Origin: Ramlibacter sp. Leaf400
Lineage (GTDB): Bacteria > Pseudomonadota > Gammaproteobacteria > Burkholderiales > Burkholderiaceae_C
Direction: 5' to 3'
DNA length: 64,000 bases
Assembly (NCBI RefSeq): GCF_001424545.1
Contig: NZ_LMQL01000015.1
Coordinates: forward strand, 62,001-126,000
Shown: positions 45,252 to 54,663 of the stretch, piece by piece
How positions within the stretch are numbered: position 1 is the first letter of the stretch
How the letters are laid out: each line of letters opens with the position of its first letter
Notes under the pieces: model-generated
What the model was told of the DNA's origin: nothing
What the model saw: the letters and a program-made list of their open reading frames with translations, nothing else
Databases searched by the model: none
Program-made: the position numbers and the translations under genes

Positions 45252-45279
45252 CCGGAAGTGCCGCTTCCGGCTGTGTTTT
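45252..45279 (+). terminator. Terminator-like hairpin in the carA leader (possible attenuator)
   Basis: CCGGAAG (45252-45258) pairs with CTTCCGG (45264-45270) around a 5-nt loop, followed by CTGTGTTTT. It lies between the promoter and the carA start, a layout expected for transcription attenuation of a pyrimidine/arginine gene. The U-run is interrupted, so strength is uncertain. Confidence 0.5.
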
Positions 45280-45307
45280 GGGCGTACCGCACCTCACGGA
45301 GACCCCA

Positions 45308-46470
<1,163 letters not shown>

Positions 46471-46480
<10 letters not shown>

Positions 46481-46504
46481 GGGCTGGGGGCTAGGGACTA
46501 GGGA
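46471..46504 (+). repeat. Left arm of the heptad-repeat cassette
   Basis: Units GGGACTA (46473-46479), GGGGCTG (46480-46486), GGGGCTA (46487-46493), GGGACTA (46494-46500) and GGGA. It contains the carA stop TAG (46478-46480). It ends at the A of the start codon of the inserted gene, so its last G-rich units are also the only candidate ribosome-binding sequence. Five G-runs of three or more with 3-4-base loops satisfy a G-quadruplex pattern on the coding strand. Confidence 0.9.
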
Positions 46505-46878
46505 TGGAGATTCGAAGCTACAAGGACCTGATCGTCTGGCAGCGGGCGATGGATCTCACGTATCGCCTTTACCGGTTCTCCTCCCTGCTTCCTGCCGATG
46601 AGCGATTCGGACTGACCTCTCAGTTGCGCCGGGCAGCGGTATCCGTGCCTGCGAACATTGCCGAAGGCCGCCAGCGGACCACAACCAAGGATTTTTTGCG
46701 TTTTTTGTCGATTGCAGCGGGCTCACTCGCCGAACTCGAAACTCTGATCGAGTTGGCGGGCCGCTTGTACCAACATCAATCTGCCCAGGTCGACGAACTG
46801 GCTCGGGAGGCCGATGAGGTGGGAAAGATGCTCCGGTCGCTCCAGCAGCGCCTGGAAGCAAAGCTCCCTAGCCCCTAG
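46504..46878 (+). CDS. Four-helix-bundle protein (23S rRNA intervening-sequence / Avd-like family)
   Basis: A 124-residue helical protein of the TIGR02436/S23-IVS family. The signature residues are SYKDLIVWQRAMDLTYRLYR, FGLTSQLRRAAVSVPANIAE and FLRFLSIAAGSLAELETLIE; the four helices span about 5-28, 36-55, 60-88 and 92-119. The first relatives were found in intervening sequences of Leptospira 23S rRNA. The fold is shared with Avd, the nucleic-acid-binding accessory protein of diversity-generating retroelements. There is no rRNA or reverse transcriptase nearby. The start codon abuts the left heptad arm and the stop TAG (46876-46878) lies inside the right arm. Codon use is less GC-biased than in neighbours, suggesting transfer. 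Its role, perhaps binding the heptad repeats, is inference. Confidence 0.9.
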   Translation: MEIRSYKDLIVWQRAMDLTYRLYRFSSLLPADERFGLTSQLRRAAVSVPANIAEGRQRTTTKDFLRFLSIAAGSLAELETLIELAGRLYQHQSAQVDELAREADEVGKMLRSLQQRLEAKLPSP

Positions 46879-46898
46879 CCCCCAGCCCCTAGTCCCTC
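46865..46898 (-). repeat. Right arm of the heptad-repeat cassette
   Basis: The inverted copy of 46471-46504 with one mismatch. Its TAG supplies the stop of the four-helix-bundle gene. carB starts eight bases after the arm, and the C-rich strand leaves carB with no Shine-Dalgarno sequence. Confidence 0.9.
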
Positions 46899-46905
46899 AA
46901 AACAA

Positions 46906-50160
<3,255 letters not shown>

Positions 50161-54539: not shown

Positions 54540-54562
54540 GGGCGCTCGCACGGCTTCGCGCA

Positions 54563-54663
54563 GGGACTAGGGGCTGGGGGCTAGGGGCTAGGGAAACCTG
54601 GCCCTTTGTCTTTCTGTCCATCCCCAGCCCCCAGCCCCCAGCCCCCAGCCCCTAGCCCCTGAG
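54563..54663. repeat. ORF-less heptad-repeat inverted element between ftsH and folP
   Basis: The left arm 54563-54593 consists of GGGACTA, GGGGCTG, GGGGCTA, GGGGCTA, GGG. With one flanking base on each side it is identical over 33 bases to the right arm of the carA-carB cassette (as reverse complement). The right arm 54622-54663 is the inverted type with six units, mostly CCCCCAG. The 28-bp centre (54594-54621) carries no gene and does not match the four-helix-bundle gene by eye. It fills most of the gap between ftsH (stop 54539) and folP (ATG 54677). The transcript would form a very stable hairpin. Confidence 0.85.

Follow-up and report, generated by a model that had tools for sequence, protein, structure and literature searches.

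The carA-carB junction of Ramlibacter sp. Leaf400 raises the question of what a single gene between two inverted heptad-repeat arms is doing within a pair of neighbouring genes, and whether the arms belong to the protein that they enclose. The 428-bp cassette (46471-46898) lies in the window, the 64,000-nucleotide stretch of DNA that was analysed. Upstream, carA (45278-46480, forward strand) runs into the 5' arm (46471-46504, forward strand), which contains its last codons and stop and consists of five AGGG/GGGG boxes at 7-nt spacing. The start codon of the S23 (23S rRNA-intervening-sequence) protein gene (46504-46878, forward strand) directly adjoins the last of these boxes. The 3' arm (46865-46898, reverse strand) is an inverted copy of the 5' arm and includes the S23 stop codon, and carB (46906-50160, forward strand) follows. 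The arms are made of GGGRCTR heptads, 34 nt each, with 360 nt between them, and the TAG stops of carA (46478-46480) and S23 (46876-46878) both fall inside them.

A first-pass annotation, made from the letters alone, had described 34-nt inverted GGGRCTR arms around one 124-aa gene of deviant composition with T-tracts, and this description holds. The arms are 97% complementary, and the GC content of the S23 gene is 0.592 against 0.698 for the whole window, a value as low being found in 30/2545 sliding windows of the same size. GC3 is 0.70 in S23 compared with 0.94 in carA and 0.97 in carB, and S23 has two T6 runs whereas carA and carB have no run of five or more T. The arms exceed chance: an arm model detects both with E values of 8e-12 and 1.3e-11 (the left arm belonged to its training set), and the flank controls given below score far lower. 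A carA-S23-carB transcript is predicted to fold into a long stem enclosing S23 (z -5.7). An Rfam search of 45800-47500 with E up to 1 gave no match, and the element lies outside any 23S rRNA gene.

The S23 family (PF05635) is present in many phyla and to our knowledge has no assigned role. Membership of this family and a relation in fold to Avd of diversity-generating retroelements (DGRs), both proposed earlier, were confirmed. The cassette protein scores 124.9 bits against PF05635 (cut-off 33.8) and 121 bits against TIGR02436 (cut-off 24), and its AlphaFold model is a confident four-helix bundle (mean pLDDT 94.3). The best solved relatives, XCC0516 (2gsc) and BT_0352 (2rld), have five chains each, and the Xanthomonas S23 protein is described as a homopentamer with toroidal structure (PMC4990558). 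Avd proteins are the next structural matches (Foldseek 8ub7, a DGR ribonucleoprotein, and 4dwl; TM 0.75 each, E 0.014 and 0.047). The cassette protein shares their four-helix-bundle fold but stays below the cut-offs of the Avd profiles (Avd 26.5 vs 80; bAvd 23.7 vs 40), and its immediate neighbours are carA and carB. No transposase or catalytic family is among the profile matches of S23, the sole ORF between the arms in the S23 reading. Among the four carA-carB copies, dN/dS is 0.08-0.12 in the four of six pairs that are not saturated, with dS of 1.7-2.8, and judged from these coding sequences the protein looks to be under constraint.

Named loci of Ramlibacter paludis (L002) and R. lithotrophicus (L003) include the 1-kb cores of loci from two genomes assigned to the genus, in keeping with a Ramlibacter host. 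A search for the junction in 59 genomes of the genus gave a match in 58, and 30 junctions were read. Twenty-one are short and empty, the carA stop and carB start lying within about a dozen bases; four hold the cassette (the window genome G000, G011, G029 and G043), one holds a degenerate heptad pair that lacks a gene (G030), and four have other insertions. Clean empty sites, for which the first-pass annotation had suggested looking in relatives, make up 21/30 junctions, and the genus did not show the contrary arrangement, in which every carA-carB junction would have the gene without arms. In the filled junctions carA ends in a heptad TAG, the insertion point is equal to within a few bases in all four species, and no target duplication was seen by eye. 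A remnant of S23 in the short G030 pair was considered and is unsupported, the alignment scores being within the range of shuffles. By eye, palindrome-like intergenic insertions occur at the same junction in G032 (L234), G028 (L254) and G008 (L250), and the carA-carB junction seems to be a tolerant site.

The S23 genes of the four occupied species are 62-71% identical in nucleotide sequence; for carA and carB beside the junction, comparison of the same species in 130-nt windows gives 73-98% identity. Trees were made from carA-carB (30 genomes, 2.5 kb) and from three loci (27 genomes, 9.7 kb, by a quick method). Both pair G000 with G013 and G011 with G020, neither G013 nor G020 having the cassette, and the distribution of species with S23 requires four changes on them. 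Given the missing target duplication, the shared junction and the divergence of S23 to 62-71%, an old insertion followed by repeated loss of S23 and arms, aided by recombination, fits at least as well as repeated movement and is on balance the best fit. Repeated targeted gain is possible, and the carA-carB cassette as a self-contained mobile unit, which the earlier reading had proposed, is unproven.

The first-pass annotation had also expected these repeats to accompany the protein family in other genomes. The contrary outcome, no association elsewhere, was tested for and not found; the cassette is real, and the association is wider than had been reported. For each S23 gene the upstream flank was compared with the downstream flank for inverted similarity, and a score of 14 was taken as the threshold. 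The first set combined the best 80 of 344 loci (by protein similarity, with one genome for each of 84,980 species) with 27 loci from the window genome and its relatives, and 106 of these 107 had enough flank to be scored. Across many phyla, a score of at least 14 was reached at 82/106 S23 loci compared with 7/331 other ORFs from the same loci. For the second set, a class-wide draw of 369 genomes of which 77 have S23, 66 of 110 listed matches were used and 65 scored; excluded were the window's own locus, fragments, reading frames interrupted by stops, and most copies that were weak or repeated. Here 48/65 S23 loci reached the threshold, compared with 16/650 mismatched flank pairs. No arm pair above threshold was found at 24/106 loci of the first set and 17/65 of the second. 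In this remainder of the first set, a one-sided run of at least three near-identical 7-nt units occurs at 3/24 loci vs 5/226 random stretches. Away from the arms, named S23 loci seldom have a further array of their unit within 3 kb (5/54 vs 3/270). A preference of S23 for co-directional operons was considered and set aside, as 53/83 classified loci are not clearly above the background of 168/224 other adjacent ORF pairs.

S23 is also carried by plasmids. Thirty-three plasmid records with S23 were found, 10 of them predicted to be conjugative, and the ten S23 loci of cyanobacterial plasmids that were read show inverted arrays in nine cases and same-direction arrays in the tenth. In a Pseudanabaena galeata plasmid (L364, about 1870-2500) S23 separates cas6 from cas4, and its two arrays (AAAAGCT upstream, AAAAGCC downstream) point in the same direction; in Anabaena sp. 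90 (L359) S23 occupies the same cas position but the arms are inverted. In the Nostoc edaphicum plasmid pNe_5 (L358) the genes for ribonucleotide reductase alpha and beta are separated by an S23 gene that has inverted TAGGGAG arms and lies on the opposite strand. Two Calothrix plasmids with near-identical S23 were examined as a possible case of cassette movement, and they share 3608 nt at 97.5%, a larger segment than the cassette alone.

The arms obey a common architecture with a changing word. The best arm period is 7 at 117/130 armed S23 loci. The unit varies widely (GGGRCTR, TAGGCAG, CAGTGGC, TAGCTTT, GGCAGTC, AATGGAT and others), agreeing between both arms of one locus and differing between species. 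The 5' arm has more G than C at 123 loci and more C than G at 4. The trinucleotide [CT]AG occurs within the unit at 73/117 loci (shuffled mean 33.5, maximum 47) and AG at 101/117 (shuffled mean 70.4, maximum 83). The commonest arm length is 4-5 heptads, found in 58/117 5' arms and 77/117 3' arms by strict in-register counting. Similarity of protein and similarity of unit are weakly correlated (rho 0.137, with 0/1000 permutations as high), which may come from shared ancestry alone. Many S23 arms are without GGG tracts, and G-quadruplex (G4) formation was therefore rejected as their general principle.

Heptad arms are not confined to S23 loci: species of the genus with S23 also have gene-less pairs of this kind in intergenic regions of the host. 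In the genus the number of arms tends to follow the presence of the gene. The heptad pattern matches the window genome 83 times on each strand, its reversed control not at all. S23 is present in 4/60 genus genomes, and a model trained on the window's unit finds 57 arms in the window genome and 56, 18 and 12 in the three other species with the gene. The 56 genus genomes without S23 have 16, 16, 10, 4, 4, 2, 2, 2, 2 and 1 arms, then none in 46; those keeping most are G020 (16), G001 (16) and G021 (10). The sister of the window genome, G013, has 0 arms against 57. With a broader pattern applied to 147 relatives, at least 14 matches on a strand occur only in G000, G011, G029, G043 and G110, all of which have S23; G122, also with S23, has 7 and 8 matches, and no genome without S23 exceeds 8.

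A unit-tolerant pattern of four AGGG boxes at 7-nt intervals was run on the 369 class genomes. It matched both strands in 16/77 genomes with S23 vs 1/292 without (Fisher p 4.8e-11), and any match was found in 20/77 vs 15/292. The exception is G412, with 122 matches and no S23, whose congener G301 has S23 and 305 matches; the other 14 genomes that have matches without S23 show them on a single strand only, at most 7. In 57/77 class genomes with S23 this one pattern has no match, which a different repeat unit could explain. The reversed control also describes a heptad array (GGGANNN) and gives matches of its own, for example 10 in G202 and 7 in G466, both without S23, and strong signals in several genomes with the gene. 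Many arrays of GGGA every 7 nt, a unit type that the AGGG pattern does not count, are seen in G393, G479, G405 and G395, which have S23.

The first-pass annotation did not mention the dozens of further arms in the genome, nor a second pair in the window (54562-54660). This pair encloses no gene and lies between ftsH-like and folP-like genes, with its left arm at 54562-54593 (forward strand) and its right arm at 54633-54660 (reverse strand, as matched by the arm model at model positions 1-28). GGGRCTR arms are found at this place in G000 and G011, and most of 30 regions have a terminator-like hairpin there (by eye). G012, a species without an S23 match, has a different convergent heptad pair of GTTGAGC type between ftsH and folP (L320).

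Besides the cassettes, 27 loci in G000 and 30 in G011 were read closely. Five boxes are present in 37/53 arms in G000 and 37/56 in G011, and adjacent arm pairs are all convergent (26/26 in each genome). GGGG is the third box in 21/52 cases in G000, compared with 1/104 for the first two boxes and 1/46 for the third box in G011. In G000 unit identity is 0.422 within pairs and 0.420 between them; the corresponding values for G011 are 0.257 and 0.282. As arms within a pair are no more alike than arms across pairs, the dispersed arms look like sites held to a consensus, not fresh slippage or fresh copies, and quasi-palindrome repair by local copying from arm to arm is likewise unsupported. Many pairs follow shortly behind a stop codon or stand just upstream of a start codon (by eye). 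Copies of a MITE would have an internal sequence in common; the spacers of the dispersed pairs are mostly unlike each other, apart from an AACAGCC/GGCTGTT motif inside 14/26 pairs in G000 and 8/29 in G011 (L289, L290, L294 and L281, for example), which hints at a common ancestor or a second motif.

One locus, L142, bears on what the dispersed pairs enclose. The block GGCCAAGTGGTCAGGCCAATTA between the G000 arms is present in 30/30 orthologous regions with at most three mismatches, mostly without arms, and we take it from its place for a host promoter or operator. The conserved spacer indicates that at least one dispersed pair brackets host DNA and not a copied transposon core. By eye, long arms are present on both sides in G000, G011, G029, G020 and G021 (the last with a variant left unit), and G022 has a short left arm. 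In several relatives without arms, TAGGG or CCCTAG stands where the arms would be, as either a seed or a remnant.

The closest described elements are the intervening sequences (IVS) of 23S rRNA, which account for 3/173 S23 loci (L104, L106 and L034, the first also by Rfam). All three have arm scores of at least 14, with CAGGAAT-type arms in L104 and L106; these two, with the same score in one genome, were considered as a transposition pair, and both proved to be 23S rRNA loci. In the IVS as in the window element, an S23 ORF lies between terminal inverted repeats. The Coxiella IVS is reported in PMC4990558 as 428 nt long, similar in size to the window element, with inverted termini and heptameric direct repeats (GACAGAT) before the S23 ORF. 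The window element differs in sitting between protein genes, in having heptad arrays as arms, and in sharing its unit with dispersed gene-less pairs. The first-pass annotation had regarded a system of this composition as undescribed. That is too broad, as 23S rRNA IVS are already S23 genes between inverted repeats, but a link between S23 proteins and heptad arms was recognised nowhere in the open-access full texts searched, a collection outside which most subscription papers fall. What is known is the S23-bearing IVS with inverted ends; what is new, as far as searched, is that arms of five boxes are dispersed through genomes, re-coded, and associated with S23.

Heptamer repeats themselves have been described. 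In Xanthomonas and Nostoc, GGGNATC heptamers are over-represented in non-coding regions and form G4 in vitro; they occur as 70 and 75 convergent pairs, and four units are preferred (PMC4692102). Like the window arms they are G-rich and convergent and have GGG tracts, a feature that is not general for S23 arms elsewhere; the main text of that paper names no S23 partner, and X. campestris encodes an S23 protein (2gsc). TAACTGA repeats of Beggiatoaceae are heptamer arrays beside start codons, proposed as sites of an unknown post-transcriptional regulator; they are almost all direct, not inverted as in the window, and no S23 or four-helix partner is named in the main text (PMC4679880).

The reading that we prefer, to which we give close to even chances, is that the cassette is an IVS-like stand-alone element whose pentameric protein recognises the five-box arms, probably as single-stranded RNA or DNA. 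The cassette would be a stand-alone relative of the S23-bearing 23S rRNA IVS, and its convergent arms would be recognition sites of its own protein. TRAP is a ring whose subunits each bind one of a series of short, regularly spaced boxes, eleven in all; it is unrelated to S23 and serves as an analogy only. By this analogy each subunit of the S23 protein, presumably a pentameric ring like its solved relatives, might bind a single box (commonly YAG) on the G-rich strand of RNA or DNA in single-stranded form. The arm polarity, with the G-rich strand on the 5' side in either reading direction, fits recognition of the 5' arm of the transcript. In RNA, pairing of the arms could enclose the S23 message in a stem of about 32 bp. 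RNase III could excise this structure as in rRNA IVS, leaving carA and carB expressed. Because the start codon adjoins the last box, a ring on the 5' arm could limit S23 synthesis. The dispersed pairs would then be a regulon or a parasitic family with its sequence maintained by the S23 protein. Counted against this are the S23 loci without an arm pair above threshold, the species that keep arms without S23, G412, the 57/77 genomes without a pattern match, the weak correlation of protein with unit, and the few same-unit arrays within 3 kb (5/54 vs 3/270). The AACAGCC/GGCTGTT motif inside pairs is not predicted if the arms are purely binding sites.

REP/RAYT systems are dispersed palindromes tied to a single dedicated protein, RAYT, which is a Y1 transposase, and they resemble the S23 system in joining dispersed inverted repeats to one protein. 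A minimal mobile element of this type is possible though rather doubtful. Enzymes of the host, or others acting in trans, would move S23 and arms as a unit, and the dispersed pairs would be its non-autonomous copies. It would account for the empty and filled carA-carB sites, the patchy occurrence of S23 (4/60 genus and 77/369 class genomes), its presence on plasmids (10/33 records predicted conjugative) and at different gene junctions in different species, and the internal motif common to 14/26 and 8/29 pairs. Unlike RAYT, however, S23 has no catalytic domain that could be found; no target duplication is visible at the filled sites, and the S23 copies there are old. The spacer at L142 is conserved host DNA, so that at least one pair is not a copied core, and 12/28 sites, the cassette included and one by its left flank only, are common to G000 and G011, two species of different clades.

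That the arms are host-made microsatellites or G-quadruplex motifs expanding by slippage, with S23 as incidental cargo, is unlikely. The G4 formed in vitro by the Xanthomonas and Nostoc heptamers (PMC4692102) fits this origin, and the L142 arms look by eye as if grown outward from AGGG...CCCT seeds. It was already weakened by the many S23 loci whose arms lack GGG tracts, and the strict convergence and five-box mode of the arms, their co-occurrence with S23, and the 57 vs 0 arms of the sisters G000 and G013 speak against it as well. Still less probable is that the arms are transcription or mRNA-end hairpins replacing terminators, of which S23 is merely a user. The ftsH-folP pair does occupy a place at which a terminator-like hairpin is seen in most of the 30 regions, many pairs closely follow a stop codon or precede a start codon (both by eye), and the RNA stem is strong (z -5.5), but such a role explains neither the link to one protein family nor why the dispersed arms of a genome have the unit of its S23 arms.

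Recognition of the arms by S23 can be extended to a wider proposal, which we offer tentatively. S23 may be the missing partner of bacterial heptamer repeats, a pentameric ring that recognises, on RNA or DNA in single-stranded form, five boxes spaced 7 nt apart, with the word re-coded in each lineage, so that 23S rRNA IVS, the Xanthomonas and cyanobacterial heptads and the window arms would be one S23-dependent system without a catalytic enzyme. Through its link with the arms S23 gains a candidate ligand, a 32-mer with which binding is easily tested, and becomes a candidate reader for heptamer repeats described at least twice with no partner named in the main texts (PMC4692102, PMC4679880). The link also makes the IVS of fragmented rRNA part of a broader class of elements. 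Should unit and protein be re-coded together, these loci would form a natural series of protein-nucleic acid specificities.

A further observation concerns copy number. The 1.5-Mb genome G470 (L226) has eleven low-scoring S23 matches, one a fragment and ten full-length in two score classes, and eight of the ten full-length matches lie within the first 90 kb of the contig.
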